In this document: one piece after another, positions 2,512-19,663 of the stretch | Layout of the letters: each line of letters opens with the position of its first letter | Position numbering within the stretch: the first letter of the stretch is position 1 | IMG/VR virus record: IMGVR_UViG_3300008110_005133 | Coordinates: 1-22,343 of that record | Origin: a virus | Strand: one strand, 5' to 3' | Length of the DNA: 22,343 nt | Notes under the pieces: generated by a model | What the model was told of the DNA's origin: nothing | Database searches by the model: none | Seen by the model: only the letters and a program-made list of their open reading frames with translations | Translations under genes and position numbers: made by a program

Positions 2512-3558
2512 CTATTCAACTTTAAATAGTGTTTCTGTGTCAATTACTCTTGAATAATCCCCAGAGTTAATCTTTAATTTTAATGTATAGAATCTACCAG
2601 AGTATAATGGAGTGGTATCAAGTACGATATAAGACCCCGTGGCATCTGTACTAATCTTGCTGTAGTCATCAAACCCGATAACAGTAGTATTACTTTGTGT
2701 ATCCACAATGGAGTAGTACGATGATGTTGGAAGATAATATTTGTTCTTGTATCGTAACGTACTATCAAATGAACGTAATGGATATTCATCACGAACGACA
2801 AGATTTATTTTAGTAATGTCACCCTTGGTGTATGTTTCTTTTAAGTTTGTTGGAGCTATTTTAACATTTAAAGTAGACGGAATAGCTGCTAAACTTCCAG
2901 TAACAAAACTTTGATTATCCCATGCTACTTCCAATGTAGGTTGGTGAATCGTGTGTGTTTGGGTAGAGAATATTTTAATATTTCCCTTGTTTGTAGTATC
3001 TTGTTCATCCGTTGTCGGAAATTGTAAAGCCAATCCATAAAATGTGTTTTGGAGAGATTGACTGACGATTGGTTGGAGGATACTTGTAACGTCAAGTCGA
3101 ATGTCTTGTAATGGATATGTTGACAACGTTAAGCTTGCTGAAGTAGAGGTTGTTAGGAAGTCACCTCCTGCTAAACTCCATGACGTTGCAGTACCAAGTT
3201 GTCTCCATGTTGCACCATCATTTACATTTTCTACATTTTGATAGAAAAATCCACTACCTTCGTCCCACGATTGAGATACCTTATAAATGATAATTTTTTG
3301 ATTTCTTTTTACATTGTTAGCATTTGCTAGTTTTAAATTTAAAAAGAAATTAGCGGTAGCTGGTACCGTTTGTGTAGTTGGTAAATCAAAATAAATTAAG
3401 GAACGCGCCGACCCAGTAGCATATGCGGTAGAACTAGTAAAGTCTACACTAGTGTTGATAACTTTACCAATTTCTAAAATTTCATCTAACCCAGCATTAT
3501 TCGTTGGATATGCTTGATAAAGAGTCGTGTCCTTACTGGCAGTTAATATTTTTCTCAT
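2512..3558 (-). CDS. DNRLRE-type beta-sandwich protein in baseplate operon
   Basis: A 348-residue protein. The first 200 residues resemble DNRLRE/carbohydrate-binding-like beta-sandwich proteins: an opening D-T-T-L-Y strand, a later R-S-L-I-Y-F-D-L-P strand matching the family's 'R-x-L-x-x-F-D-L' signature, then V-S-Q-S-W-D-E-G and a W-x-x-x-G-G-D segment. The rest (about 220-348) is another beta-rich domain. Such domains are known from secreted and surface proteins, where they bind or scaffold. Here the gene starts in an ATGA overlap with the gp6-like gene, so it is likely a virion part, perhaps the base of a fibre. The function is inferred. Confidence 0.8.
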   Translation of the reverse strand: MRKILTASKDTTLYQAYPTNNAGLDEILEIGKVINTSVDFTSSTAYATGSARSLIYFDLPTTQTVPATANFFLNLKLANANNVKRNQKIIIYKVSQSWDEGSGFFYQNVENVNDGATWRQLGTATSWSLAGGDFLTTSTSASLTLSTYPLQDIRLDVTSILQPIVSQSLQNTFYGLALQFPTTDEQDTTNKGNIKIFSTQTHTIHQPTLEVAWDNQSFVTGSLAAIPSTLNVKIAPTNLKETYTKGDITKINLVVRDEYPLRSFDSTLRYKNKYYLPTSSYYSIVDTQSNTTVIGFDDYSKISTDATGSYIVLDTTPLYSGRFYTLKLKINSGDYSRVIDTETLFKVE

Positions 3559-5477
3559 TGTGTTGCGTTCCCTATAATGTCAGTTTGTGGATACTTCAAC
3601 TCAAATATACTTGGGTCAAGACTTGGGTAGATAACTCCGTTAATCGTGGCTTCATCAATGTCATATCGATAGTTTTGATAGTTTGCACCATCTCTAAATT
3701 GATACTTGTTGAAGATTCTAACACCACGAACCGATTGTACTCCATCTACTAACCCAATAGCATATGAGATATCAGCTAAAACAATTGGTTGGTTTATATT
3801 CCATCTATCAATATTAAAGAATTCTTGTACCGTGCCAATACTGCGTGCTAAAACATCGTTTACATTGTAGTTTCTAAGAACAGATATGTCAAATTGTACC
3901 CCAATATTAATTACGAACGCATCAAGAATGTTAACATCGTCTGTTAATAATCTAAATTGTTCTAAATATCGGGCCAAATTATCTTTTGTTACAGTATTCA
4001 GTGTTGCAAAATTACCGTTTGTATCGTACCCCAACGTGTATAAGTTGATAGAGTTGGGCTTTACTGGGTTTTCTACATATGTTCTTTCATTATTTGCTGC
4101 TAAAATTCTATTAATTTGTTCATCACGAATCGCATATGCCTTTGCAATACGGCCATATTTTGCTGGTAATGAGTATGCTCGTACTGCGTAATCTTCTGCG
4201 GTAACTGCACGATTTTGTGCGTTGAAGAACGCTAGTGCATTTTGTCGAATTTCGTCTAACGATTCACCGTCTCCACCACCAGTCGCAGGTAAATCATTTG
4301 TAATAGTTACTGTTTGCACTGCTGCGTTAAATGCACTAAGTTCAGCGGTAGAATAGTCTGTTGTATCGTTTAAGGTAATTAGCTCAGACACAACATTAAT
4401 TGTATTTGATGGAGTATTACTTTCCACACCACCACCAACCAAATATGTCACAGTTAATGTTGTATTTGCTGGTGATATTCCGTATGCATTACTTGTCAAG
4501 AAATTTACATTGTTGATTGCAACGTTACCCAGCGCACTTTCAATAGTTGTCCCGTATTGAGAAGTTGCCACTTGACGAGAATCAAGAGTTAAATCTAACT
4601 CTGCGGCATCGTCTGTGCCAGAACCAAATGATAATTCCATACGGAACTCTCTATTAACTCTGGTTACAAATCTCCGCGGAACTTTCTTTAAGCGCAACTT
4701 AGCAGATGGTAATGCACCAGTTTCACTGTTTGCAGTTACTTCTACATCACTCATAATAACGTCTTGTGCAAGATAATCGACTTCATACCACGTATTATTA
4801 TCGGAATCGACCACACTTTCTATTCCAATAACATTTTCATCTGGCATCAATACCGATGTGAACTTTTGAGCCGTTCCAAAGGTAAACTGTGTGGTCTTTT
4901 CTGTTGCTGCTACGAGTTTTGCCGTCTTACTTACAATGAATGTTGATGGATTTCCACCACTAAACGTATTAACAATGTAATTTTCACTAGTGATGTCAGT
5001 AAAGTTGACATCTTCAACCAATCTAAATTGAATTGATGATTGTCCCGAGGTTGTAAACGCACTACCTCTTGCAACTTTTAGGAGATATTTTGGGTCGGGA
5101 ACATATACTCCGTTTTGCAAGACCGCTGGTGCTAATTGGTATAGTGTTGCAACGACACTTGCTGGATAAATTAACTTTGGCTTATACCCCAAGAATTGTG
5201 CGATAGACACCACGTTTTCTGGTTGTTCTGCGTATGCTAATAGATTTTCCTTAAATTGGTTGTCAATATAAAATGACAATACGTCACCCACATACGACGC
5301 CATTTCAATAAACATCATACCAGGTGATGTTTCATTGAAGTCAGAGTACGTATTTGGATAATATGCCTTTGCAAACTCTATTAAGTTTTGCCGAAAGTCA
5401 GTAAATGTCTTTGAGATGTAATTAATCTGCTTGACATTCGGCCGAGGTTGTATAACTACCGGTTGATTACTTGACAT
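3555..5477 (-). CDS. Baseplate wedge protein, T4 gp6-like (gpJ family)
   Basis: A 640-residue homologue of the T4 gp6 / phage P2 gpJ baseplate family, which forms the inner wedge ring around the tail hub. The N-terminus (about 30-75) has the typical 'Y-P-N-x-x-x-D-F-N-E-x-S-P-G-M-M-F-I-E-M-A-S-Y' block followed by a G-D-V-L-S-F-Y-I-D-N segment. The centre (about 395-445) carries the G-G-G-D-x-E-S-L-D-E-I-R-x-N-A block and the R-A-V-T-A-E-D-Y segment seen in gpJ-like proteins. A GGAG lies 6 bases upstream of the ATG. It directly follows the gp25-like gene, the same order as in T4-like phages. T4 gp6 is of similar size (about 660 residues). Confidence 0.93.
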   Translation of the reverse strand: MSSNQPVVIQPRPNVKQINYISKTFTDFRQNLIEFAKAYYPNTYSDFNETSPGMMFIEMASYVGDVLSFYIDNQFKENLLAYAEQPENVVSIAQFLGYKPKLIYPASVVATLYQLAPAVLQNGVYVPDPKYLLKVARGSAFTTSGQSSIQFRLVEDVNFTDITSENYIVNTFSGGNPSTFIVSKTAKLVAATEKTTQFTFGTAQKFTSVLMPDENVIGIESVVDSDNNTWYEVDYLAQDVIMSDVEVTANSETGALPSAKLRLKKVPRRFVTRVNREFRMELSFGSGTDDAAELDLTLDSRQVATSQYGTTIESALGNVAINNVNFLTSNAYGISPANTTLTVTYLVGGGVESNTPSNTINVVSELITLNDTTDYSTAELSAFNAAVQTVTITNDLPATGGGDGESLDEIRQNALAFFNAQNRAVTAEDYAVRAYSLPAKYGRIAKAYAIRDEQINRILAANNERTYVENPVKPNSINLYTLGYDTNGNFATLNTVTKDNLARYLEQFRLLTDDVNILDAFVINIGVQFDISVLRNYNVNDVLARSIGTVQEFFNIDRWNINQPIVLADISYAIGLVDGVQSVRGVRIFNKYQFRDGANYQNYRYDIDEATINGVIYPSLDPSIFELKYPQTDIIGNATQ

Positions 5478-5501: not shown

Positions 5502-5963
5502 TTATAATCTGTTTCTATTTCTAGGTGTGGTCGTACGTACTACAGAATTTGGTTCAAATGGAAACGCAACTGACGGTGCACCTAATGCTGCTGTGGATAT
5601 TGCTACCTGGTCCGTCACATTTGGATTACTTCTAAATCTATATACACAATTTATATTTAAAGAATTTTCTGCATCTGATTTAGTGATTTGAAAATCCGTG
5701 AGTTCAATAAATGGTAACCAACGATCTACAGCCTCTACCACAGCCAGTCTAGCACGTTCTAATGTATCATCAGTCATTGGTTCAAACAAAATTTTCCATA
5801 AATCGCATCCTAAATCAGGATGTCCCAACCGTTCTCCTTTTTTAGTAAGAATCAAATTTTTAAAATTTGACCGTACTTGTTGGATAACGGATGTGGATTG
5901 TTCAAACATTCCTGTTTGGCCAAGCCGTAACGGAAGAGTTACACCAATGAACTTTTGTGCCAT
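5502..5963 (-). CDS. Baseplate wedge protein, T4 gp25-like
   Basis: A 153-residue member of the gp25 / GPW / type VI TssE family, which joins baseplate wedges to the sheath. The diagnostic stretch is at about residues 38-57: a K-G-E-R-L-G-H-P-D-L-G-C motif followed by D-L-W-K-I-L-F-E-P, matching the family's 'G-E-R-x-x-x-P-x-F-G-x-x-L-x-x-x-x-F-E-P' signature. After it comes the expected helical piece (A-R-L-A-V-V-E-A-V-D-R-W-L-P) and a beta region. Length agrees with T4 gp25 (about 130) plus short ends. It sits between a small coiled-coil protein and the gp6-like gene. Confidence 0.93.
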   Translation of the reverse strand: MAQKFIGVTLPLRLGQTGMFEQSTSVIQQVRSNFKNLILTKKGERLGHPDLGCDLWKILFEPMTDDTLERARLAVVEAVDRWLPFIELTDFQITKSDAENSLNINCVYRFRSNPNVTDQVAISTAALGAPSVAFPFEPNSVVRTTTPRNRNRL

Positions 5964-6759: not shown

Positions 6760-8136
6760 TCAGTCATTGGTTTTTGAAGTAAAATTACTTGTACTATTAA
6801 AAGACGCTCCCTTACCTAACGAGATGTCCGCTGTCAGCTGTGCTAATGTTGTTGCCAATCTTGTAGCAGACGCCGCGGCGGTTGGTGATGGTACAAATGA
6901 AATACTTATATCTCGTAAGGCAGATACCACGTTCTTTAAAAACACAGATAACTGTCCGCCCAAAACCATTGGTTGTGTTTCGTCTTGCCCCGAACCTATA
7001 AATATCTTTTTACCCGATATTATGTAGTTTCCTGACGTTCCGTAGGATATATCGTTTGACGCCACAACAGATACCGTACGTCCTTTAATCAAAACGTCGT
7101 TATATGCCTGTAGCTTAATATCTCTATCTGTCGTCATTCTTACCGATTCTTGAGAATCTAGCGTTATCGACTTTACTGCACTAAGGTTGATTTCTGCCTT
7201 AGAAAATAGGGAAATTTCATTAATTTTACTGTTTAGGACTAATCTATCGGAGTTTATGAATATCTGTGCTCCGGTGTAAACGTTTGAATTTTGGTTTTCT
7301 GATGACCTAAGGTGGGCCGGACTATCCAACGTTGCTGCCGCAAACCCCACCTGCTCATCGGTAACCATCCAAATAGTGCTTTTATCCTTATTAATATCCT
7401 CGTAGGTTAGTCCATACGTCCCACCTACTACGGTTTCTTGCGTACCATCTCTATTAATGTCTATCGATGTAATTTTATTAGGACTCTGCCCAACAGTTAA
7501 TAGTATATTTGGCTGTGGAGTGTTAGTGTTTGGATTACTAAACAGACTTGAACCAAATCTAATAATATTACCAAATCTACCTTGTACAATTAAATCACCC
7601 TCGTTCGGTCGAACCATACGAACTGTTGGGTTTTCGCTAAATTCATCACCCAAACTAAACTGTTGCTGACTTCCCCACGGTCTGTATGCGGTTCCACCTT
7701 GAGCCGCTAACTGGGCCGCATCACTCTGATTTTGACTTGGTTCGGTGGGCGAAAACCGTTGACTTAATCCAGGCCAAGAACTTTCAGTAATTTTATTGGT
7801 TGAATTAATTCTGCGAGTATAGAATAAACGACCGAGGGAATAAAATACCAATACCAGTTCATTTTTTAAGGGATATTCACGTATACTAGAATCAATCGGA
7901 GCCGCCCAGTTTAATTTTTCCTTCGGCACACCTCTATCACTGGGAATAAATCTAACTTGAACCATACCAACATTACTACCGTCTGCCGCATACTGTGAAT
8001 GTAGTTCGTTTAAAATCACATCTTCTACCAAGCCATCTTGATACGGTGTTGGTTGTGTGATAGAAAACCGTGGGAACTGTGACGCTCCCAGTTGGTTGAT
8101 ATCAATATTGTACGATATCGGTCCAAATGATGACAT
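6760..8136 (-). CDS. Baseplate central spike-like protein, T4 gp5-like
   Basis: A 458-residue protein resembling the gp5-type spike proteins of T4-like marine phages. Residues about 30-115 look like an OB-fold (a long V-x-x-x-L-x-x-Y opening, V-G-M-V-Q-V-R-F-I-P, then E-Y-P-L-K-N-E-L-V-L-V-F). Residues about 180-200 hold a G-D-L-I-V-Q-G-R-F-G-N-I-I-R-F-G block, which in this family precedes the trimeric beta-helix needle. Residues about 285-390 are short alternating strands (I-F-I-N-S-D-R-L-V-L-N-S type) that fit the beta-helix. No lysozyme domain like that of T4 gp5 is present. The start overlaps the upstream stop (TAATG). Confidence 0.8.
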   Translation of the reverse strand: MSSFGPISYNIDINQLGASQFPRFSITQPTPYQDGLVEDVILNELHSQYAADGSNVGMVQVRFIPSDRGVPKEKLNWAAPIDSSIREYPLKNELVLVFYSLGRLFYTRRINSTNKITESSWPGLSQRFSPTEPSQNQSDAAQLAAQGGTAYRPWGSQQQFSLGDEFSENPTVRMVRPNEGDLIVQGRFGNIIRFGSSLFSNPNTNTPQPNILLTVGQSPNKITSIDINRDGTQETVVGGTYGLTYEDINKDKSTIWMVTDEQVGFAAATLDSPAHLRSSENQNSNVYTGAQIFINSDRLVLNSKINEISLFSKAEINLSAVKSITLDSQESVRMTTDRDIKLQAYNDVLIKGRTVSVVASNDISYGTSGNYIISGKKIFIGSGQDETQPMVLGGQLSVFLKNVVSALRDISISFVPSPTAAASATRLATTLAQLTADISLGKGASFNSTSNFTSKTND

Positions 8137-8417
8137 TAGCTCTTCTCTGCAAACACATCATCCAAGTCCTTCACATCTTCTTGAAGTCCTTGGATTTCGA
8201 CGTTGATATCCTTTAACAGTGCATTCTTTTCTTCTTCTGACAATAATCCGTCTAGAGAAGCATTAGACTTGACGCCAACCGATACGATGCGTTGGGCAAT
8301 TTGTGCGACACGAACCAAGTGTTCATCGTTCTTGACATTCACTTCTAAGAATCCCTGCACAATTGGTCCAATCACAGCCGCATCTTCTGGAGTACGGATG
8401 AGTTGGACCATTTTCAT
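8136..8417 (-). CDS. Small helical protein between late sigma and spike genes
   Basis: A 93-residue acidic, mostly helical protein ending in a Glu/Asp-rich tail. Its ATG overlaps the stop of the sigma factor gene (ATGA), and its stop overlaps the start of the spike-like gene (TAATG). A second in-frame Met two codons later is possible, and neither has a strong Shine-Dalgarno. In T4 the late sigma gp55 works with a small partner, gp33; position and size would allow that, but I see no sequence signature for it. It could equally be a small tail protein. Confidence 0.75.
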   Translation of the reverse strand: MKMVQLIRTPEDAAVIGPIVQGFLEVNVKNDEHLVRVAQIAQRIVSVGVKSNASLDGLLSEEEKNALLKDINVEIQGLQEDVKDLDDVFAEKS

Positions 8418-9184
8418 AATAAACGAGTTGATTTGTGCCCGTTTACTGTCGGTATTTTTGTGAATTTCTGAGAAAATGGTCCGTTGCGTCTAAATTCTCC
8501 CAACATTCTAATAATATGCGGACGCATCTTATTGATGACCTTGGTAATGTGAGCAGTTTTATAATTAGTCATCTCCCGAACCATCAAATAAAGAGCTTTC
8601 TTGTTAAAATTATCGATATTATCAATACGTTCGATAAGTTTTACGATAGCAGAAGCAATTTCTATGTCACGCTTTTTCTTGAATATCTTTGTTGTGTTGA
8701 ATTCCCAATAGTCTACCAAAAGACGGAGAAATTCTTTCATATCTACCGTAGAGTCACGGGTTTCCGGCTCCACTATTAGCATTTCTTCCAAAGTAAACGA
8801 CTCTTCAGTTTGGTCTGAGAAGTACAATACTCGCTTTTCTTCCTTATATGAGTTATTGTTGTGTAATATAAGATAATTTTTTGCTATTACGCTGAAGTAT
8901 GAGAACGCTTTACCCTTATCTTCGGTAAATTTATGTAAATTGATAACCAGAAAGGAGACTACCTGCGCCTTAATTTCGTCGAAGGTACCCTCCATATATG
9001 GAAATTTGAACCGATTGATAACATTCTCTGCTAGTTTATCAAGCGGTCCTTGAATTTTACTTCTAAATATTTGTTCTCGTTCGTCTGAATCTGTAGACTT
9101 GTTGTATGCGATTATCGCCTTTTCAGTATCTTCTGTAAAATATACCTTATCGCTCTTCTTCTTCGTTGATGTTACTGTTGCCAT
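8414..9184 (-). CDS. Late-transcription sigma factor, T4 gp55-like
   Basis: A 256-residue protein resembling T4 gp55-type sigma factors, which direct host RNA polymerase to phage late promoters. It matches region 2 of sigma70-like proteins: an N-terminal helical part ('Y-F-T-E-D-T-E-K-A-I-I-A-Y'), a conserved K-x-K-A-F-S-Y-F-S-V-I-A-K-N-Y-L-I segment (about 100-120) typical of gp55, and a long basic C-terminus. I chose the ATG at 9184 because a GGAG sits 7 bases upstream; an ATG at 9208 is in frame but has a worse site. The start lies 38 bases inside the upstream gene. No T4-style TATAAATA late promoter stands out nearby. Confidence 0.78.
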   Translation of the reverse strand: MATVTSTKKKSDKVYFTEDTEKAIIAYNKSTDSDEREQIFRSKIQGPLDKLAENVINRFKFPYMEGTFDEIKAQVVSFLVINLHKFTEDKGKAFSYFSVIAKNYLILHNNNSYKEEKRVLYFSDQTEESFTLEEMLIVEPETRDSTVDMKEFLRLLVDYWEFNTTKIFKKKRDIEIASAIVKLIERIDNIDNFNKKALYLMVREMTNYKTAHITKVINKMRPHIIRMLGEFRRNGPFSQKFTKIPTVNGHKSTRLL

Positions 9185-9440
9185 TACGTATCTCCGTAAC
9201 GAATGCATAAAGTAAATCTGTGCATTCTACCAATTGTTTAAAAACGGCTCCTACTTCGTCGTCTTGTTCAAACATTTGACGACTATCTAAACTACGCATC
9301 AGTCTTACGGTAGCATTTGTGCGACCGTAAAACTGATTAATTGCGTCTTCCATCCTTTCGTTTTTCTTTAACAAGTTATATGTTGCGAAAGATAACGCTG
9401 TGACAAGAATTGTCAAGATCACGACCAAAAAAATTAACAT
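9147..9440 (-). CDS. Small membrane-anchored protein
   Basis: A 97-residue protein. Residues 1-22 form one hydrophobic transmembrane segment, followed by a K-K-N-E-R stretch, which by the positive-inside rule suggests a cytoplasmic C-terminal domain. The soluble part has a M-E-D-A-I-N-Q-F helix and a D-D-E-V-G-A-V-F-K-Q-L segment, similar to small anchored proteins I associate with T4-like marine phages. Its ATG overlaps the stop of the lysozyme-like gene (TAATG). It is not an obvious spanin because of its predicted topology. The function is unknown. Confidence 0.8.
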   Translation of the reverse strand: MLIFLVVILTILVTALSFATYNLLKKNERMEDAINQFYGRTNATVRLMRSLDSRQMFEQDDEVGAVFKQLVECTDLLYAFVTEIRNGNSNINEEEER

Positions 9441-9979: not shown

Positions 9980-11080
9980 TTAGAGTAAGTGAGGACGAGC
10001 CTCCGCCATGCCTGCGCCCGTGACCACCACATATTCGGGGAAGAATTCTTCAAGATTCCGTGCTCCGGCATAGGACAGAGCGGAACGCAATCCATCGGTT
10101 AATCCTTCCACAATAAACTTCACACCACCCTTAAAAGGAATTACTGTAGACTCCCCTTCAACATTTCGTTTTGCTTGACCGTGGACACTCTTCGTTTCCA
10201 ACGATGCAGCTCCACGATACCGCTTATATAAACCATTCTGCTTCTCAATGATTGCACCAGGTGCTTCTTTTGTTCCTGCCAAGAGTGACCCAAGGATTAC
10301 TGAGTTTGCACCAACTCCCAACGCCTTTGCAATATCACCACTACTACGGATACCACCACATGCGATAACAGGAACACTAACTGTTTGCGCACAATCTTGT
10401 AATGAGGTCACATTTGGAACACCGAAACCAGTCTTGATACGGGTGGTACAAAGTGACCCACCACCGATACCAACACGAATTGCATCAGCTCCCCAGTCTT
10501 GGAGTGCTTGCGCTGCTTTACCGGTCGCAACGTTTCCTGCGATAATATCAACATTAGACGGAAGTTCTTTTTTTAGTCTCATTAACGCATCACGAACAAA
10601 CGTGTGATATCCGTGTGCTACGTCAATCAAGATAATATTCGCACCCTTAGTAACCAACTCAAATGCTCGTTCAAAATAGTCACCGTTTGCACCGATTGCT
10701 GCGGCGATTGGAACTTGTCTCATTCTTTTAAAAGCAGCTTCCCATTCATCCATCCCACTCATATTATCTATGTTTGCAAAATAGGTCACCGCAATACCGG
10801 CATCAACAGCCATCTTTACACGATGTACTTGTGCACCTTGTTCTTCAATCGTCATAAACCGGTGAATGATACCCACTCCACCTAGTTCTGCCATTGCGAT
10901 TGCCATTTCACTATCACAAACCGTGTCCATAGGAGATGCGACGAATGGAACCCTAATACTATAATTAGTTGTTAGTTTAGTTGTGAGGTCAATATTCTGA
11001 CGAGATTCAATATCCGAAAACGCAGGGATAAGTTGGATGTCGTCGTATGTGAGAGCTTGTTTATCGTGTAATTGTGTCAT
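9980..11080 (-). CDS. IMP dehydrogenase / GMP reductase family enzyme, no CBS domains
   Basis: A 366-residue TIM-barrel enzyme that interconverts IMP with XMP (IMPDH) or GMP (GMP reductase). Residues 48-56 carry the S-P-M-D-T-V block, and residues about 205-222 the G-G-G-S-L-C-T-T-R-I-K-T-G catalytic loop with Cys211. The CBS pair usual in bacterial GuaB is absent. The C-terminal flap (about 285-320) contains Y-R-G-A-A-S-L-E-T and a V-E-G-E-S-T-V-I-P-F-K-G stretch more like GMP reductases. I chose the ATG at 11080, which leaves a 20-base overlap with the glycosyltransferase; a longer frame starting at 11188 has a non-homologous 36-residue tail. The IMPDH or GMPR assignment is open. Confidence 0.92.
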   Translation of the reverse strand: MTQLHDKQALTYDDIQLIPAFSDIESRQNIDLTTKLTTNYSIRVPFVASPMDTVCDSEMAIAMAELGGVGIIHRFMTIEEQGAQVHRVKMAVDAGIAVTYFANIDNMSGMDEWEAAFKRMRQVPIAAAIGANGDYFERAFELVTKGANIILIDVAHGYHTFVRDALMRLKKELPSNVDIIAGNVATGKAAQALQDWGADAIRVGIGGGSLCTTRIKTGFGVPNVTSLQDCAQTVSVPVIACGGIRSSGDIAKALGVGANSVILGSLLAGTKEAPGAIIEKQNGLYKRYRGAASLETKSVHGQAKRNVEGESTVIPFKGGVKFIVEGLTDGLRSALSYAGARNLEEFFPEYVVVTGAGMAEARPHLL

Positions 11081-11696
11081 AGTAATCGTTTTGTTTGCGT
11101 TGACGTTCAATATCCTTGATGTGATACAGCGACCACTCTTCTTCTGCTGGAAGTGGTGCGTGGGTTTGGTATCCAACAATCCGCTCATGCACCTTTCCTT
11201 CCCACTTGATATATTCTGCGTTCCGATACAGACGAGTCTGATAGTCGGGGAACATTACCCAACCCTTCTCGTTAATTCGCCATCCCCATCGTCTAATATC
11301 GTCGTCAGTCAATCCACTAACAACGTTGACGCGTGGAATAAGAAACACATCTATATTTTTGTTATTATCTACAATATCATGCAGATAAGTTAATAGATTG
11401 CCGTTAAACTTCTCATCCGCATCCACTTGGAAAATATATTCTCCATTACACTTACTATTTAAAAAGTTTTTATGTGCGGCAAAGTCGTGATTCAGTTCAT
11501 GCTGATATAGCCCAATCTTATCCTTGTCTGCATAATCGTATAACATAGACGAAGTGAATGGGTCGGTAGAATTATCATCCACAACCACAATCTCATCACC
11601 AGTTTGTTCACAATGTGGAATCAGCTGGTCGAGAAGGTCACGAATATATTCCCCTTCATTATGTGTAGTGATTGCAAAGGAAATCAACGGTGTCAT
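11061..11696 (-). CDS. Family 2 glycosyltransferase
   Basis: A 211-residue GT-A fold glycosyltransferase. It opens with P-L-I-S-F-A-I-T-T-H-N-E-G, the classic GT2 start, then has E-I-V-V-V-D-D-N-S-T-D (nucleotide-binding) and F-Q-V-D-A-D-E-K-F, the DxD-type metal site (near residue 92). Later comes a W-E-G-K-V-H-E motif seen in GT2 proteins. Possible acceptors are cell-surface glycans, phage proteins or modified DNA bases; the sequence does not say which. The ATG overlaps the stop of the small membrane gene (TAATG), so the two are coupled, and the end overlaps the IMPDH-like start. Confidence 0.92.
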   Translation of the reverse strand: MTPLISFAITTHNEGEYIRDLLDQLIPHCEQTGDEIVVVDDNSTDPFTSSMLYDYADKDKIGLYQHELNHDFAAHKNFLNSKCNGEYIFQVDADEKFNGNLLTYLHDIVDNNKNIDVFLIPRVNVVSGLTDDDIRRWGWRINEKGWVMFPDYQTRLYRNAEYIKWEGKVHERIVGYQTHAPLPAEEEWSLYHIKDIERQRKQNDYYDTITR

Positions 11697-14462: not shown

Positions 14463-15086
14463 TTAGAATCGTGAATTATCGTTTTCACATTGACTGGACA
14501 TATGGTCAGCCCAATGAATAATACGTGGAAGATTCGTTTTCATCGCGTACGGGGCGTAGTTGACTAAGTATGCTTTTGAACCATCATCATATAATCCGTC
14601 AGATAACTTAATACCCAACCATTCCTTTTGTGTGATTTCAATTCCATACTTTTGCAAGAGGAACAATGCGCGGTCGGGAACCTTCATATATTGAAGATTA
14701 TCATTCTGCTTGTAGAGTTCACCGCGTTTCCGATGCCAATCAGAATCTTGGTCAACATAGTACGGACCTTCGTTGGGATTTCCAAGCTTACCCAAATCGT
14801 GATGGATTGCGGCGAAAATAAGTTCCTGCTTGGTGAAGTCTACATCACCACCAATCTTCTTGTATACGGAAGAGAGATGTAGCGCTGTTTCCGTAACTCG
14901 AAGTACGTGGTCAAGATATCCGCCGGGAAACGCATTATGGAAATACGTCTTACCAGAAGCGGGAGCGGTTGACAACTCACCGTTAAAATCTTCATACATT
15001 ACCAAGAGCTTTTCCGCACGGGAATCAGCCTTGATATACTCCATAAACTTTTCGTACTTTTCTGCGAGCTGTTCTTCCGTAACCAT
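14463..15086 (-). CDS. HD-domain metal-dependent phosphohydrolase
   Basis: A 207-residue HD-superfamily protein. It has F-H-N-A-F-P-G-G-Y-L-D-H-V-L-R-V at about 49-64 (His60 as the first metal ligand), I-H-H-D-L-G-K at 94-100 (His96-Asp97 as the HD pair) and W-A-D-H at 192-195 (Asp194 as the last ligand), the complete H...HD...D set. The 'G-G-x-L-x-H' arrangement is like YhaM-type nucleic acid or nucleotide phosphohydrolases. The substrate is unknown; dATP triphosphohydrolase (DatZ) is possible because the window has a PurA/PurZ gene, but this is only a hypothesis. AAGGA lies 8 bases upstream of the ATG. Confidence 0.88.
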   Translation of the reverse strand: MVTEEQLAEKYEKFMEYIKADSRAEKLLVMYEDFNGELSTAPASGKTYFHNAFPGGYLDHVLRVTETALHLSSVYKKIGGDVDFTKQELIFAAIHHDLGKLGNPNEGPYYVDQDSDWHRKRGELYKQNDNLQYMKVPDRALFLLQKYGIEITQKEWLGIKLSDGLYDDGSKAYLVNYAPYAMKTNLPRIIHWADHMSSQCENDNSRF

Positions 15087-15101: not shown

Positions 15102-15791
15102 TTAATTTTGATATTGGCGTTTCTGTTGCCTAGTCCACAATTCAAATATAGTAGGTGCTGTCGGAATTTTCAAGAGGGTCATATTAATATCTTCTAATAG
15201 ATGATATGCCTTCTTGTTATTGCACGAATTACAGCACGTGACTACGTTTTCCCAAATATCCCGACCACCGATGTGACGCGGGAGTACGTGGTCACGGGTC
15301 AAGAATTCGGCAGACCGCATTTGTTGCTTATTTCGACCGCAGTACTGGCAAGTGTACTGGTCACGAATAAATAGATTTCGTTGTGTCAATAGTGCTTTAG
15401 TCCGAAATACCATACGACCCTTTACGAATTGCTTTAACACAATGCTCGTAGGAACAGGAAACGTCTGACTCGGTGACCGCACCACCAACTCTGGATGTTC
15501 TTCGACAATCATCTTCCACTTCTTTAACAAATCACGTGCGAATGCGGCGTATTCATATTCTTCTGCTTTCGAGAAATGCCCAATCGCATCTTCAATAACC
15601 TTTGCATAATCCGCTTTACGAACCATCGCTACGTTTTCATTGTTTCCGCCAAATGAGAACAATTCTGTCTTGTCCTTATTGTTCTTTATCGCGCTGGAAA
15701 TACTCAATACCATGTAGCGATATACCAAAATCTCGTTGTCCTTTAAAAATTGTTGAATGACGGGAAACGACTTGGTTGGTAATTTTAACAT
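15102..15791 (-). CDS. HNH endonuclease with N-terminal extension
   Basis: A 229-residue protein. Residues about 130-200 form an HNH nuclease domain of the McrA type: R-D-Q-Y-T-C-Q-Y-C-G (Cys pair), then T-R-D-H-V-L-P-R-H-I-G-G (catalytic His), N-V-V-T-C-C-N-S-C-N (second Cys pair, N of HNH) and K-K. Before it is a V-P-x-S-I-V-L-K-Q-F-V segment seen in stand-alone HNH proteins. The first 105 residues are helical and unrecognised, so the protein may be a fusion. The ATG at 15791 overlaps the zinc-ribbon gene's TGA, with GGAG 6 bases upstream. It may be a homing or packaging-linked nuclease. Confidence 0.9.
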   Translation of the reverse strand: MLKLPTKSFPVIQQFLKDNEILVYRYMVLSISSAIKNNKDKTELFSFGGNNENVAMVRKADYAKVIEDAIGHFSKAEEYEYAAFARDLLKKWKMIVEEHPELVVRSPSQTFPVPTSIVLKQFVKGRMVFRTKALLTQRNLFIRDQYTCQYCGRNKQQMRSAEFLTRDHVLPRHIGGRDIWENVVTCCNSCNNKKAYHLLEDINMTLLKIPTAPTIFELWTRQQKRQYQN

Positions 15792-16162
15792 CACTTTCTC
15801 CGCTTAGGACTCTTCTTTTTTACTACCTTCTTCTTTGTTGTAACTTTTTTTTCTTTCTTGGGTTTAGGAGCTTCTGGGGTAACTATTTCCCCGGTGTCCT
15901 TTCCCTTTATAAATACTCGACCGTCTGTATGAACGTACCGAGCCTTCAATGCCCAACCACGGGGAAACTTTTCACCGACTGACTTGGGTTTAATACCTTC
16001 TGGCGGAGCGACTTGTTTCTGTACACAATATGCACAGGTAACTGCTCTAATATCGCTTGCCACCGACACAGTAACAAGATTACATCCCTGACATACCAGA
16101 GCTTTACGTTCCATTACGTGTAACTTACCGCCTGTGAACTTTGTAACCTTTTTCTTTAGCAT
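15791..16162 (-). CDS. Four-cysteine zinc-ribbon protein with basic tail
   Basis: A 123-residue protein. Two C-x-x-C pairs (Cys24/Cys27 and Cys43/Cys46) form a zinc ribbon-like module, followed by a G-W-A-L-K-A-R-Y-V-H-T-D-G-R-V-F segment (about 67-84). The last 26 residues are almost all Lys/Arg/Pro/Val, fitting nucleic-acid binding. The start overlaps the preceding stop in TAATG. The family is not recognised; DNA or RNA binding is inferred from the ribbon and the basic tail. Both neighbours are coupled to it. Confidence 0.82.
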   Translation of the reverse strand: MLKKKVTKFTGGKLHVMERKALVCQGCNLVTVSVASDIRAVTCAYCVQKQVAPPEGIKPKSVGEKFPRGWALKARYVHTDGRVFIKGKDTGEIVTPEAPKPKKEKKVTTKKKVVKKKSPKRRK

Positions 16163-16488: not shown

Positions 16489-16822
16489 TGGACCTGCAGG
16501 GAGTCGAACCCTGGTCCGAGACTGCTTCTTCCTAAACTTTTATGTACGTAGTTCTTTGTATATTTTCGTCCCCCTCTCGACAAAGAACAAACGTAAGGTT
16601 GACTTAGGCTACGTTCCGTTTGATGTTAGTTACCAGCCGTCACCAACACTACACCACATCTATGAACGATAGTAACCCTATGTGGGTCAGATTACTTCGT
16701 CAGGCTGCTTACGCAGCGAGGGCTAATTGATTGCCAGTTGAAAATTTCGGTCTGTTTTACCAGTCTTACCAAACTGGGTACAAGATTTAAGCCTCTACAT
16801 CCCGTCGAAACCGGTCAGGCCC
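16489..16822 (-). ncRNA. ssrA: tmRNA (ssrA), tag ends in ...NQLALAA
   Basis: A complete one-piece tmRNA of about 334 nt, which rescues stalled ribosomes. The 5' end (GGGCCTG) pairs with CAGGTCC at the 3' end as a 7-bp acceptor stem. The 5' end is followed by the GGTTTCGACGGG motif typical of tmRNA, and the T arm (CAGGG, loop TTCGACT, CCCTG) is perfect. Helix 2 can form between CTTAAAT near the 5' end and GTTTAGG before the 3' end. The tag frame, 16735-16709, begins with GGC at nt 88 (E. coli resumes at nt 90) and encodes GNQLALAA followed by TAA. CCA is not encoded. Confidence 0.93.
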
Positions 16823-17268
16823 TATTTTACATCAAATACTTTGTCAGTTACCTTCCATATTCCTGTTATGCCGAACACTCGTTGATACATTGAGATATCT
16901 TTAATTCGTCTATTAGATGGGTCGTATACTGTTCCGTCTTTTAACATCACAACTGCATGCATTCCAGGCGGATTGCTTGACCATACATCTACTATGTGAA
17001 TTGGAGCGAATGGGTTGACGGGCCACTTCGGAATTAACAACTTATTAGGTTCGTATTCGTGACTGATTCGTTGTATTGCATATCCATTTTTTGATAGGTA
17101 CTGGTCAACGATACCATCTTCTACGCCTTGATATCGACCTTCATTTTCCCAATGTTCGTATATTTCTTTGATGACTCGTTGGAGAGTTTTGCCTGTGACC
17201 ATAGCGAGACACGCAGGGACACAACTATTTGTCAACGTTGCTTTTACGTATTTCGTTGGTTTCTCCAT
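16822..17268 (-). CDS. C39-like cysteine peptidase homologue
   Basis: A 148-residue papain-like fold protein resembling the C39 peptidase domain that trims leader peptides. The expected active site is present: N-S-C-V-P-A-C-L-A-M (Cys16 as nucleophile after the typical Asn/Gln position), G-M-H-A-V-V-M (His104) and V-Y-D-P-S (Asp116). The family's usual C-G-P-A motif is replaced by C-V-P-A. No transporter or leader-peptide gene is beside it, so its substrate is unknown. Start ATG 17268 with GGAG 7 bases upstream. Its TAG stop shares its last base with the first base of the tmRNA. Confidence 0.75.
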   Translation of the reverse strand: MEKPTKYVKATLTNSCVPACLAMVTGKTLQRVIKEIYEHWENEGRYQGVEDGIVDQYLSKNGYAIQRISHEYEPNKLLIPKWPVNPFAPIHIVDVWSSNPPGMHAVVMLKDGTVYDPSNRRIKDISMYQRVFGITGIWKVTDKVFDVK

Positions 17269-17499: not shown

Positions 17500-17503
17500 G
17501 AAG

Positions 17504-17574
17504 AGCGGTTCCACGGAGTTGCACCGGACCTGTTGGCTGGACGCCAACCGTGCTATCTATTACACTAGAACCGC
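17504..17574 (-). tRNA. Aberrant tRNA-like sequence, Gly(UCC)-type anticodon
   Basis: Minus strand. A 7-bp acceptor stem (GCGGTTC / GAACCGC), a D stem (GTGT/GCAC) and a perfect 5-bp anticodon stem (GTTGG/CCAAC) frame the loop CGTCCAG, whose centre is TCC. Position 33, normally U, is G, and the T loop (TGCAACT) also has G at the normally U position 55. The T stem is imperfect. CCA is not encoded. It may be a degraded or unusual tRNA, since a normal tRNA-Gly(UCC) is at 18443. I am unsure whether it is charged. Confidence 0.55.
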
Positions 17575-17578
17575 AAAA

Positions 17579-17612
17579 AAGGTAGGGACCGGCGTTCAAG
17601 AGTATGTCCCAT
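17579..17612 (-). terminator. Possible weak terminator after the lipoprotein gene
   Basis: On the minus strand GGGAC and GTCCC can pair (5 bp) around a 16-base loop, with TTTTTT four bases after the stem. It lies between the lipoprotein stop and the tRNA-like element. The short stem and the gap to the T run make this weak, and it would block read-through to the tRNA-like sequence. Confidence 0.3.
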
Positions 17613-17613
17613 T

Positions 17614-17781
17614 TTAATTTCCCCGTTTTCTAGATTCGCCGTGGGAAACGTCAAGCTTTGCAGTCGAATCGGTAATTACAATCGGTGCGGCAGTGCTATC
17701 TGCTGCAACTTCGCCTTGTGTTTCCTTTGCTGCACATGCTGAAAGACTGATTACTGCGACTGCGAGAATGAACTTGTACAT
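17614..17781 (-). CDS. Small outer-membrane-type lipoprotein
   Basis: A 55-residue protein with a classic lipoprotein signal: M-Y-K start, hydrophobic F-I-L-A-V-A-V-I-S and the lipobox L-S-A-C, so Cys16 would be lipidated. The mature part is about 40 residues, acidic in the middle and basic at the end. GGAG lies 8 bases before the ATG at 17781. Placed between tRNA genes. Its size resembles Rz1-type outer spanins, which help in the last step of lysis, but it lacks their proline-richness and no inner partner is clear, so it may do something else. Confidence 0.7.
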   Translation of the reverse strand: MYKFILAVAVISLSACAAKETQGEVAADSTAAPIVITDSTAKLDVSHGESRKRGN

Positions 17782-17820
17782 TGTGTACGCTCCATAAAAA
17801 GTTAATGTAACCTACTTCGA

Positions 17821-17893
17821 GTTGCCCCCCGTGGATTCGAACCACGATTAGCGGATCCAAAGTCCGCAGTCCTGCCATTGAACGAGAGGGCAA
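17821..17893 (-). tRNA. tRNA-Gln (UUG)
   Basis: Minus strand. Acceptor TTGCCCT / GGGGCAA, an anticodon stem GCGGA/TCCGC with loop CTTTGGA (anticodon TTG, codon CAA), a T arm CGTGG-TTCGAAT-CCACG. CCA is not encoded. A promoter with TTGACG/TATATA lies upstream at 17934-17963. Confidence 0.92.
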
Positions 17894-17933
17894 TGCGGGG
17901 GATGTGTTGTGAGATATCAGCTCACTCATTAAA

Positions 17934-17963
17934 AATATATAGGCGGACACACCACTTCGTCAA
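17934..17963 (-). promoter_or_regulatory. Sigma70-type promoter for tRNA-Gln and the lipoprotein
   Basis: On the minus strand TTGACG (17963-17958) is followed by TATATA (17941-17936, 16-base spacer) or TATATT (17939-17934, 18-base spacer). An AGGCGG...CCGCCT inverted repeat (17941-17946 and 17975-17980) flanks the -35 and spacer, so the promoter might be regulated by a protein or by folding. Confidence 0.6.
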
Positions 17964-17980
17964 GCTTCCCCAAACCGCCT

Positions 17981-18003
17981 GCTAGTTTCCATACTAAACT
18001 AGC
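17981..18003 (-). repeat. 8-bp inverted repeat, hairpin
   Basis: GCTAGTTT (17981-17988) pairs perfectly with AAACTAGC (17996-18003) around a 7-base loop. It lies directly between the terminator hairpin at 18005 and the promoter's AGGCGG repeat. No gene is in this piece, so it is probably part of the leader or trailer structure. Confidence 0.6.
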
Positions 18004-18004
18004 C

Positions 18005-18033
18005 AAAAAGTCTCTAGGCCTAACGACCCTAGA
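18005..18033 (-). terminator. Probable terminator after the 30-residue gene
   Basis: On the minus strand TCTAGG (18033-18028) and CCTAGA (18018-18013) form a 6-bp stem with a 9-base loop, followed by GAC and TTTTT (18009-18005). It lies about 85 bases beyond the small basic gene's stop. Confidence 0.55.
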
Positions 18034-18038
18034 ACCCG

Positions 18039-18099
18039 CCCTATCATTTTAAAAGTCTTTCCATTCGCCCGAAGGCTATTTACGAGGTGAAAGGTAGGG
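18039..18099 (-). repeat. Nested hairpin with UUCG tetraloop
   Basis: Minus strand: TAGGG/CCCTA (arms 18095-18099 and 18039-18043) encloses a CTTTC/GAAAG stem, which encloses a GCC-TTCG-GGC hairpin with a stable UUCG loop (near 18068-18077). The layered structure suggests a folded RNA, perhaps a processing or stability element. No coding frame of note. Confidence 0.5.
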
Positions 18100-18117
18100 A
18101 AAAGGCCTCGGATAGAA

Positions 18118-18210
18118 CTAATGCTTACGTTTTCTGTTTTTCCAACGATTGTTTCGTTTCTTTGAGCCAATCTTACGACGACCCTTACCGCACTTTTTTG
18201 GATGTGGCAT
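18118..18210 (-). CDS. 30-residue highly basic protein
   Basis: A short frame from ATG 18210 to TAG, with AGGAG 6 bases upstream. Of 30 residues about half are Lys or Arg, with one Cys and three His-or-Asn turns, starting M-P-H-P-K-K-C-G. This resembles small ribosomal-type or nucleic-acid-binding peptides, but I do not recognise it. It lies between tRNA-Glu and the hairpin array, and shares the promoter upstream of tRNA-Glu. Confidence 0.6.
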   Translation of the reverse strand: MPHPKKCGKGRRKIGSKKRNNRWKNRKRKH

Positions 18211-18231
18211 ATACAGCTCCTTGAACGTTCA

Positions 18232-18303
18232 TACCGCGTACGGGAATCGAACCCGTCTTACCGGAGTGAAAGTCCGGCTTCCTAGCCGATAGAAGAACGC
18301 GGC
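18232..18303 (-). tRNA. tRNA-Glu (UUC)
   Basis: Minus strand. Acceptor GCCGCGT / ACGCGGT with a G-U first pair, an anticodon stem CCGGA/TCCGG with loop CTTTCAC (anticodon TTC, codon GAA), and T arm ACGGG-TTCGATT-CCCGT. Discriminator A. CCA is not encoded. A promoter lies at 18320-18348. Confidence 0.93.
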
Positions 18304-18319
18304 GTGGTATAGAAATATA

Positions 18320-18348
18320 AATATAAACAACACTTCCAAATTTGTCAA
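18320..18348 (-). promoter_or_regulatory. Sigma70-type promoter for tRNA-Glu
   Basis: On the minus strand TTGACA (18348-18343), 17 bases, then TATATT (18325-18320). Both hexamers are near consensus. It lies between tRNA-Leu and tRNA-Glu, giving tRNA-Glu and the 30-residue gene their own start. Confidence 0.75.
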
Positions 18349-18354
18349 GTCCCA

Positions 18355-18438
18355 TGCTCTCGGTGGGAGTCGAACCCACACGCCTTGAGGGGCGGCGGAT
18401 TTTGAGTCCGCTACGTCTGCCGATTCCGTCACAAGAGC
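18355..18438 (-). tRNA. tRNA-Leu (CAA)
   Basis: Minus strand, long variable arm as expected for Leu. Acceptor GCTCTTG / CGAGAGC, anticodon stem GCGGA/TCCGC with loop CTCAAAA (anticodon CAA, codon TTG), T arm GTGGG-TTCGACT-CCCAC. Discriminator A. CCA is not encoded. Confidence 0.93.
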
Positions 18439-18442
18439 AAAG

Positions 18443-18514
18443 AGCGGGTAGAGGGAGTCGAACCCTCGTCACCAGCTTGGAAGGCTGGGGTAATAGCCGT
18501 TATACGACACCCGC
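18443..18514 (-). tRNA. tRNA-Gly (UCC)
   Basis: Minus strand. Acceptor GCGGGTG / TACCCGC, anticodon stem CCAGC/GCTGG with loop CTTCCAA (anticodon TCC, codon GGA), T arm GAGGG-TTCGACT-CCCTC. Discriminator U, as in bacterial tRNA-Gly. CCA is not encoded. It lies 4 bases from tRNA-Leu and 3 bases from tRNA-Val, so the three are one transcript. Confidence 0.93.
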
Positions 18515-18517
18515 GTA

Positions 18518-18591
18518 TGGGTAGTGAGGGATTCGAACCCCCGACCCTCTCGGTGTAAACGAGATGCTCTAACCAACTGAGCTAACCACCC
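18518..18591 (-). tRNA. tRNA-Val (UAC)
   Basis: Minus strand. Acceptor GGGTGGT / ACTACCC, D arm with GCTCAGTTGG, anticodon stem TCTCG/CGAGA with loop TTTACAC (anticodon TAC, codon GTA), T arm with loop TTCGAAT. Discriminator A. CCA is not encoded. First gene of the tRNA run, right after a promoter. Confidence 0.93.
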
Positions 18592-18652: not shown

Positions 18653-19663
18653 TTATATTCCGTTTGGGGTCATAGACCAAGTAATTTCTTCTATATCGGT
18701 ATTTTGATATAAAATATCGTTTATTTGGGAGGTGAACTCTTTTAGAGTAGATACCTCATGCAGTGTATTGTTGTGAATATATTTAAATACCCCAACCTGC
18801 TCCAATATATCTGCCTTGTTGATAATAAGGTCCGTGACCCCATTAATATTTGCTGCCTTAATGACCCCATCCATATCTAACCACCGAACCTTCCGCTTCC
18901 GACCCGTGGTTGCGCCAAACTCACCACCAGCTTCTTGAATCTTTTGAAGGTCAGCATCATTTTCATCTTGAAACGTAGTCTTGAATCCAGAATACGTTTC
19001 GTATGCCTTCATAATACCATACACATATCGTAACTTTTGTGGAGGAAGTCCGTTCAGAATAGCAGACCCAATCGTGCAATGCGAACTAGTCACGTATGGA
19101 TAATCACCCCAATCAATGTCAATTTGGAATCCTTGTGCCCCTTCACACAAAATACGCTTTTGATTTCCAGAAAATAATACTTCGTAGATGTCACAAACTT
19201 TAAAATCAGTAATTGAACTTAAATCTAAGTCTCCAATACGCGTTCCTTGTCGTGAATACTTATCACGATATGCTGGACCAATTCCTTGACGGGTGGTACC
19301 AATTCGTGAATCTTTACTATCTTCATCGAGGTGATATCCGAATACTACATGTGTTCGTTTGTCAACAAATATCAATCCATCGGTGTAAACACCTTGGGCT
19401 TGTAAGTCACGAATTTCTTCTACCAGCTTTTGGATATTAACAACACATCCCAATCCGATATAGCTTGGGATACCAAACAATACACCGATAGGAACTTGGT
19501 GGGTCACAATCTTTTTTCCATCGTGATATACCGTGTGTCCTGCGTTTGCTCCACCATTATACCGAAGAACCATATCATAGTTCTTGGCAAGAGCGTGAGC
19601 AACTTTACCCTTTCCCGTATCACCTGCTTGTAAATCTACGATTACATCAGCGTATTGAATCAT
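18653..19663 (-). CDS. Adenylosuccinate synthetase family protein (PurA/PurZ)
   Basis: A 336-residue GTP-dependent synthetase of the PurA fold. The P-loop is G-D-T-G-K-G-K (14-20), with Asp15, the PurA catalytic base position, kept. G-G-A-N-A-G-H-T (37-44) holds the catalytic His43. Later come I-G-T-T-R-Q-G-I-G-P-A-Y (about 121-132), E-G-A-Q-G (about 174-178), Y-P-Y-V-T-S-S and E-F-G-A-T-T-G-R. It is about 95 residues shorter than bacterial PurA and lacks the C-terminal S-T-G-P-x-R block, matching archaeal PurA and phage PurZ sizes. PurA makes succinyl-AMP from IMP; PurZ makes a 2-aminoadenine precursor from dGMP. Which one is not settled by the motifs. Confidence 0.92.
   Translation of the reverse strand: MIQYADVIVDLQAGDTGKGKVAHALAKNYDMVLRYNGGANAGHTVYHDGKKIVTHQVPIGVLFGIPSYIGLGCVVNIQKLVEEIRDLQAQGVYTDGLIFVDKRTHVVFGYHLDEDSKDSRIGTTRQGIGPAYRDKYSRQGTRIGDLDLSSITDFKVCDIYEVLFSGNQKRILCEGAQGFQIDIDWGDYPYVTSSHCTIGSAILNGLPPQKLRYVYGIMKAYETYSGFKTTFQDENDADLQKIQEAGGEFGATTGRKRKVRWLDMDGVIKAANINGVTDLIINKADILEQVGVFKYIHNNTLHEVSTLKEFTSQINDILYQNTDIEEITWSMTPNGI

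Follow-up and report, generated by a model that had tools for sequence, protein, structure and literature searches.

A complete one-piece tmRNA gene with an eight-residue tag in a phage record, and the range of tags carried by related phages

The window, i.e., the whole stretch of DNA analysed here, is an entire virus record of 22,343 bases. Its minus strand carries a complete one-piece tmRNA gene at positions 16489-16822 (334 nucleotides without CCA), identified by the Rfam family RF00023 and by covariation among 15 distinct sequences. In a covariance-model search, positions 16822-16486 (-) match RF00023 with 114.6 bits for a cut-off of 47 (E 1.7e-44). The alignment covers model positions 1-374 of 374, hence it is full length and not cut off, and this is the sole RF00023 match above the cut-off in the search of the window record. 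The original prediction, which had placed a phage-encoded tmRNA at 16489-16822 and proposed RF00023 as the family to search, is thereby borne out. The gene ends that it gave are exact for the RNA minus its CCA, since G1 is position 16822 and the discriminator A is position 16489. The bases following the discriminator are CTC, so that the CCA is not encoded in the gene. The 7-bp acceptor stem and the T arm, both recognized from the letters at the outset, are found as described. The former pairs GGGCCTG (16816-16822, -) with CAGGTCC (16490-16496, -), and its third pair is a G-U (G3-U70) in all 15 distinct rows of the alignment presented below. G3-U70 is the alanine identity mark. The T arm (16497-16513, -) has 5 bp, with 100% of the alignment cells paired and two pairs changed on both sides.

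The tag frame had been predicted to start at nt 88 of the RNA. The resume codon GGC is indeed located there, and the frame GGC AAT CAA TTA GCC CTC GCT GCG TAA (16709-16735, -) encodes GNQLALAA, followed by the stop codon TAA. Four bases 5' of the resume codon, at the place of E. coli A86, stands an A (16739, -) that is present in 16/16 sequences, and the place of E. coli U85 is occupied by a C. In E. coli, A86 has been reported to be required and the U85 to C change to be tolerated (PMC2481249). The stop codon sits in the loop of helix 5 (GCTGC/GCAGC, 16704-16717, -), the cells of which are 100% paired; being almost invariant, this helix yields little covariation. Pseudoknot 1 (16747-16777, -) is made of CCAGT/ACTGG and TTGGT/ACCGA, for which the compensatory versions CTCGT/ACGAG and TTAGT/ACTAA are found in relatives. 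Pseudoknot 2 (16654-16700, -) comprises ACGA/TCGT, AGTAA/TTACT, and CCACAT/ATGTGG (helices 7-9 of the structure alignment), and pseudoknot 3 (16607-16648, -) comprises TGTTGGT/ACTAACA and GGCT/AGCC, with six of the seven pairs of its first stem changed on both sides. Pseudoknot 4 (16551-16603, -) combines GTC/GAC and CCTT/AGGG with GTTCTTTGT/ACAAAGAAC. Its second stem is paired in 90.4% of the cells, four pairs being changed on both sides, and its first stem in 64.8% only, making it the weakest covariation-supported pseudoknot part. A long P2 stem is also present. The RF00023 score, the tRNA-like domain, the resume A with its frame, and pseudoknots 1-4 place the RNA in the tmRNA class. Its order is not the permuted, two-piece one, as the window scores 19.6 bits at best with RF04321, for a cut-off of 47.

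The 3' end of an ORF of 148 residues (16822-17268, -) coincides with nucleotide 1 of the tmRNA. This ORF has a weak match to a PHROG of unknown function and none in Pfam or NCBIfam. Six tRNA genes (Gly, Gln, Glu, Leu, Gly, Val) are located upstream of the tmRNA at 17503-18591, on the same strand. On the 3' side are found an HD-like ORF (14463-15086, -), which reaches 21.4 bits with PF01966 for a cut-off of 22, and a baseplate wedge gene (3555-5477, -), a relative of which is so annotated in Flavobacterium phage immuto and which served as an anchor for finding relatives. A scan for transcription signals returned no terminator and no promoter near the tmRNA, the promoter count being 5 versus 6.9 in shuffles.

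Close relatives came from two IMG/VR scans, one using the upstream ORF as query (9 loci) and the other the purA-like gene located at 18653-19663 (36 loci). Together these amount to 41 records, 16 of which harbor a tmRNA above the RF00023 cut-off. All nine records reached via the upstream ORF have one, a biased sample since this ORF touches the tmRNA. Of 12 records in which the purA-like gene shares 68% identity or more with that of the window, 10 have a tmRNA, the remaining two being mere fragments (5.1 and 7.1 kb). The alignment assembles the window and 15 of these 16 relatives, L063 (from a 261-kb record) being left out as too different. The tmRNA of L060 is identical to that of the window, and the covariation statistics bear on 15 distinct rows and 79 base pairs. 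Pairing is observed in 91.8% of the cells, versus 81.5% in shuffles and 34-44% after displacing the partners by 1-3 columns, the latter a comparison biased in favour of the structure because it was drawn from the window's own sequence. Changes on both sides with pairing kept affect 33 of the 79 pairs (22.7 in shuffles), with all four pseudoknots represented, and the covariation score is about twice that of the shuffles (0.388 vs 0.189). None of 500 shuffles reached the observed values of pairing, both-sided change, and covariation. The count of further standard pair types, 67, is not above that of the shuffles (74.8). Misalignment explains some of the missed pairs, e.g., those of the L048 acceptor stem and of the outer stems of pseudoknot 2 in L048, L049, L052, and L054. 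Both the pseudoknots and the tag frame are maintained among related phages, and neither of the two outcomes that the original prediction had named against itself, the lack of any tmRNA-model match and the lack of such conservation, is observed.

At a larger distance, a search of IMG/VR with the baseplate gene provided at least 599 relatives, of which 80 were kept. RF00023 exceeds its cut-off in 11/79 of these records (31 + 48 searched), the majority of the contigs being too short to extend to the tmRNA place. As a function of the reach upstream of the baseplate gene, the tmRNA is present in 8/9 contigs at 12 kb or more, 9/10 at 10 kb, 9/11 at 9 kb, and 10/14 at 8 kb. The contig of L205 has no RF00023 match despite 24 kb of sequence upstream of its baseplate gene. 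In the five distant relatives inspected (L335 to L339), the order on one strand is that of the window: the tmRNA, the HD-like gene, which is the first recognisable gene 3' of the tmRNA common to all five, ORFs 8414-9208, 8136-8417, 6760-8136, and 5502-5963, the baseplate gene, and ORF 2512-3558. The IMP dehydrogenase-like gene, Hsp20, and ORF 15791-16162 are variable in position. The baseplate proteins of these phages are just 42-49% identical; the same tmRNA locus is therefore common to distantly related phages. This conservation bears on the idea that the gene is a captured host gene or the remnant of an attachment site, left to drift, which would fit reports that ssrA is an integration site of prophages (PMC9004378, PMC3029335). 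The compensatory changes in 15 distinct sequences and the locus common to distant phages argue against drift. Furthermore, a profile search among 33 cellular tmRNA loci revealed no close relative (33.6 bits at best, for L093 from a Phocaeicola plasmid), and no integrase is found among the annotated ORFs of the window, which are part of all its ORFs. We regard such an origin as most improbable.

ARAGORN reports the six tRNAs of the window and not its tmRNA. Over 17 loci (L001, L048-L063), it read the tag correctly in 5, gave a wrong one in 1, and reported no gene in 11, a miss that is a trait of the program and not a defining feature of the tmRNA. Surveys built on ARAGORN hence undercount phage tmRNAs. 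Phage tmRNAs, initially described as known in only some large phages, are in fact familiar: PMC9004378 counts them, by ARAGORN, in 402 of 18,146 phage genomes. In addition, ten tmRNA-bearing phages are listed in PMC4131195, huge phages with a tmRNA are described in PMC7162821, and PMC11915505 has 79 unique sequences from phages in a total of 97,179.

The window tmRNA is one more case of a known kind of RNA. With the standard form of RF00023 it shares the full-length match, the acceptor and T arms, G3-U70, the resume A, the ALAA end, helix 5, and the four pseudoknots. It differs from it by the lack of an encoded CCA, by a tag of 8 residues, and by a score below those of 57 of the 58 full-length tmRNAs over the cut-off in Bacillota genomes (94-220 bits). 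The tmRNAs of Bacillus sp. 165 and B. methanolicus carry the tag GNQKLALAA, one residue longer than that of the window, the search pattern having been built on such tags; these RNAs score 207.7-213.1 bits and are weakly similar to the phage profile (L094, 19.5 bits; L095, 14.9 bits). As the cellular tmRNAs compared are nearly all from Bacillota, closeness to Bacillus tags is no evidence of the host. Mycobacteriophages (Bxz1, Wildcat, and others) and Bacillus phage G, as reported in PMC4131195, possess their own tmRNA beside tRNA genes, as does the window, although they are other phage groups. The marine phage Melnitz and its relatives also provide a tmRNA in phages from water samples, proposed to sustain host translation; it is, however, two-piece, permuted, and associated with a glutamine riboswitch (PMC9004378), whereas that of the window is one-piece. 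The huge phage LR756508 (484 kb) has a baseplate gene as in the window (39% identity over 8-637), preceded at 12 kb by a tmRNA of the same orientation. Its tag, read by eye, has 36 residues and is different from the marine long tag described below, and that of LR756500 has 10; the RNAs of these huge phages are longer than the window's.

Based on its sequence, structure, frame, conservation, and locus, 16489-16822 very probably encodes a functional tailed-phage tmRNA of the one-piece form, which would rescue stalled ribosomes with host factors. It was first suggested that this RNA may tag proteins for a phage-specific proteolysis, or act in rescue on mRNAs cleaved by the phage. Once transcribed, it would probably be processed by excision from a longer phage transcript, and charged after host enzymes have added CCA and alanine. 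Host SmpB and EF-Tu would then bind it and allow its entry into ribosomes stalled on broken mRNA, where the nascent chain would be tagged with Ala-GNQLALAA before translation ends at TAA. The ALAA end, reported to be what ClpX and ClpA recognise (PMC3985003), would pass the tagged product to the host Clp proteases for proteolysis. The phage may benefit from a free ribosome pool and from recycled amino acids during mRNA destruction. Other authors have proposed the upkeep of the hijacked machinery or amino-acid recycling (PMC9004378), and in mycobacteriophage Wildcat the tmRNA is, according to PMC7474061, the most highly expressed lytic gene. In E. coli, tmRNA is inhibited by a short tmRNA-like RNA from phage DS6A (PMC11915505, PMC4131195), and the window RNA might likewise be a decoy, tying up SmpB or AlaRS and thereby blocking the tmRNA of the host. 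Yet a decoy would have no use for the tag frame, the resume A, helix 5, or the four pseudoknots, all of which this RNA retains, and we find this improbable.

The rescue of ribosomes proposed above relies on SmpB (PF01668), which was found in 1 of the 19 records searched, many of which are fragments, and not in the window; a host SmpB is therefore assumed. The record with SmpB is G036, a 261-kb phage record (L063, L092) with a tmRNA of 83.2 bits, a 22-residue tag read by eye, and an SmpB of 158.4 bits. As to the host, a tag starting with G points to Bacteroidota as a first guess. A Flavobacterium-like host is disfavoured by the ribosome-binding-site motifs, which are found for 12 of 23 chosen window ORFs (2.4 expected) versus 1 of 48 in phage immuto. 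The corresponding count in Microcystis phage Mel-JY01 is 18/49.

Tags were read in the close relatives starting at the codon placed four bases past the invariant A. GNQLALAA is the tag of the window and recurs in six relatives (L055-L060), GNYTLALAA is that of three others (L050, L051, and L053), GNYNSPALALAA of two (L048 and L049), and GNSYSQPLALAA of two (L052 and L054), while GNTQLALAA (L061) and GTQEFALAA (L062) occur once each. Their lengths shift by whole codons (8, 9, and 12 residues), and the ALAA end is found in 16/16. In the 33 cellular loci, ARAGORN reads 32 tags of 9-19 residues. GNQLALAA is, as originally noticed, shorter than the 10 residues of E. coli, but a tag of eight residues is nothing special, since PMC11915505 gives 10 as the commonest length and has tags of 2 residues on record. 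The tag is thus unremarkable, its eight residues being short yet not extreme.

The divergence between these RNAs is unevenly distributed. Compared to L055, the window is 100% identical in the tag and helix 5, 98% in pseudoknot 2, 55% in pseudoknot 3, and 45% in pseudoknot 4. L058 is 95-100% identical to L056 at the two extremities and within the tag, but 38-76% across pseudoknots 2 to 4, the region where L058 and L062 are 83-98% alike. Trees of the tmRNA parts conflict, the grouping obtained with the tag and pseudoknot 2 being rejected on pseudoknots 3 and 4 (p-AU 9.6e-7) and the reverse grouping being rejected with less strength (p-AU 0.0195), with groups that were picked after inspection of the data. 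In the simplest reading of these sequences, the pseudoknots and the tag (16551-16735; L048-L062) seem to be swapped as modules among related phages. Such an exchange is in line with PMC2481249, in which the pseudoknots of E. coli were reported to be replaceable with activity retained. Like the long-tag branch presented below, it is unexpected to the specialist.

The first long tags at the tmRNA locus, of 36-39 residues, came from four marine-type records. With these tags as bait, 168 stretches were matched, of which 123 encode relatives and 80 were kept (L255-L334, e.g., L306:1409-1819 and L282:1411-1826). Using a reading script that demanded GGC, AGC, or GAC together with an A at -4, a closed tag was found in 79 of the 80 loci, 76 having 35-40 residues, one 34, and two 49; the latter two seem to have lost their stop. 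The resume codon is GGC in 63 loci, AGC in 14, and GAC in 2. The constancy of the A at -4 is imposed in this 79-locus set, but an earlier script without that requirement found it in all 65 rows, of which 59 also display a matching 7-bp acceptor stem at the right spacing. The RF00023 cut-off is passed by 76 of the 80 loci (18, 18, 20, and 20 per 20), and in the four others (L264, L268, L280, and L289) the tag is near one end of the available stretch.

These long tags possess a core, SLxGLxIDWHLA, and an end, QPTYAYA. Their 58 distinct sequences have a median dN/dS of 0.35, and differences at the three codon positions affect 0.215/0.163/0.348 of the comparisons, with pairs that are not independent and a conserved core favoured by the search, the tag having served as bait. 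Many long tags contain a hairpin, TTGGC...GCCAA, that may account for part of the constraint, as RNA. IDWHL or VDWHL is nonetheless kept in L328, L329, and L333, where the hairpin is weak or gone. The long tag has no match in PHROG, a single chance-level match in Pfam (E 0.11), three matches only in the PDB (E 0.17-1.1), and none by tblastn in 50,697 phage records, and its predicted structure is of low confidence (pLDDT 58.9). No description of a long conserved tag was found in the open-access literature, motif strings included, a scope outside which most subscription papers lie. The tag of Bxz1 has about 25 residues, and long tags are thus not wholly unprecedented. The long-tag branch looks apparently new and would be unexpected to a specialist.

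The same locus therefore accommodates tags of 8-12 residues near the window, of 9-10 residues in L237, L238, and L240, and of 35-40 residues in 76/79 long-tag loci. This wide range, the purifying selection on the long peptide, and the persistence of its IDWHL core irrespective of the hairpin could mean that the tmRNA acts mainly through a phage-chosen tag that decides the fate of chains, via a protease, an adaptor, or otherwise, with 8 residues as the trimmed form and the marine 35-40 as the full one. However, the window's tag bears only the ordinary ALAA end, the hairpin present in many long tags could explain part of their conservation, and the long tag resembles no protein family or structure, so that we hold this possible but rather doubtful. 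Rescue of stalled ribosomes remains the preferred function, and we tentatively add to it a scheme, which we find plausible without leaning towards it, in which the tmRNA is old and fixed and the tag is a phage-evolved effector. The marine [GS]DxSLxGLxIDWHLA...QPTYAYA (35-40 residues), placed on every rescued chain, would recruit a specific partner, beyond a Clp degron; the window's 8 residues would be one end of the range, and the pseudoknot ring would be renewed by module exchange. One tmRNA locus is kept from freshwater-type to marine phages, and the tags encoded there span 8 to 40 residues. Should the long tag have a partner of its own, phages could use trans-translation to label unfinished proteins for a chosen fate, and why phages carry a tmRNA would then become testable through tag change alone.

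Besides the one-piece form, a two-piece tmRNA exceeds the RF04321 cut-off in 11 of 42 IMG/VR records, none of which (0/11) has a one-piece tmRNA over the cut-off. These loci (L064-L074; records G018, G019, G021-G023, G025-G027, G032, G034, and G040) have the purA-like gene in common with the window; 6/11 pass the beta_tmRNA cut-off and 4/11 the alpha_tmRNA cut-off. Their tags include DNNYMSFATSYALAA and GTYNTPLALAA, the latter resembling GNYNSPALALAA. A permutation within one phage lineage was considered and rejected, as the two-piece records, although they share the purA-like gene, lack the close baseplate gene: a search of 10 of them returned nothing but short matches in five (E 1.8e-7 to 1.7e-4) and no match in the other five. 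They are thus other phages. A mini tmRNA in relatives was likewise rejected, the short RF00023 matches being halves of two-piece genes or tRNAs. In the huge phage LR756508, a second RF00023 match of 112 nt and 58.2 bits (L087, LR756508:414804-414915), beside the full tmRNA, looks like a tRNA-like domain alone.

The purA-like gene (18653-19663) encodes a short PurA/PurZ-like protein, with 244 bits for PurA and 116 bits for PurZ, both below the NCBIfam cut-offs, and the same phage encodes an IMP dehydrogenase-like protein at 9980-11188. From their sequences, these two proteins may be part of a possible modified-base pathway. In record G001 (L004, L014, and L060), the tmRNA is identical to that of the window and the baseplate protein is 100% identical, despite which the purA-like protein is only 75% identical, suggesting a local replacement.
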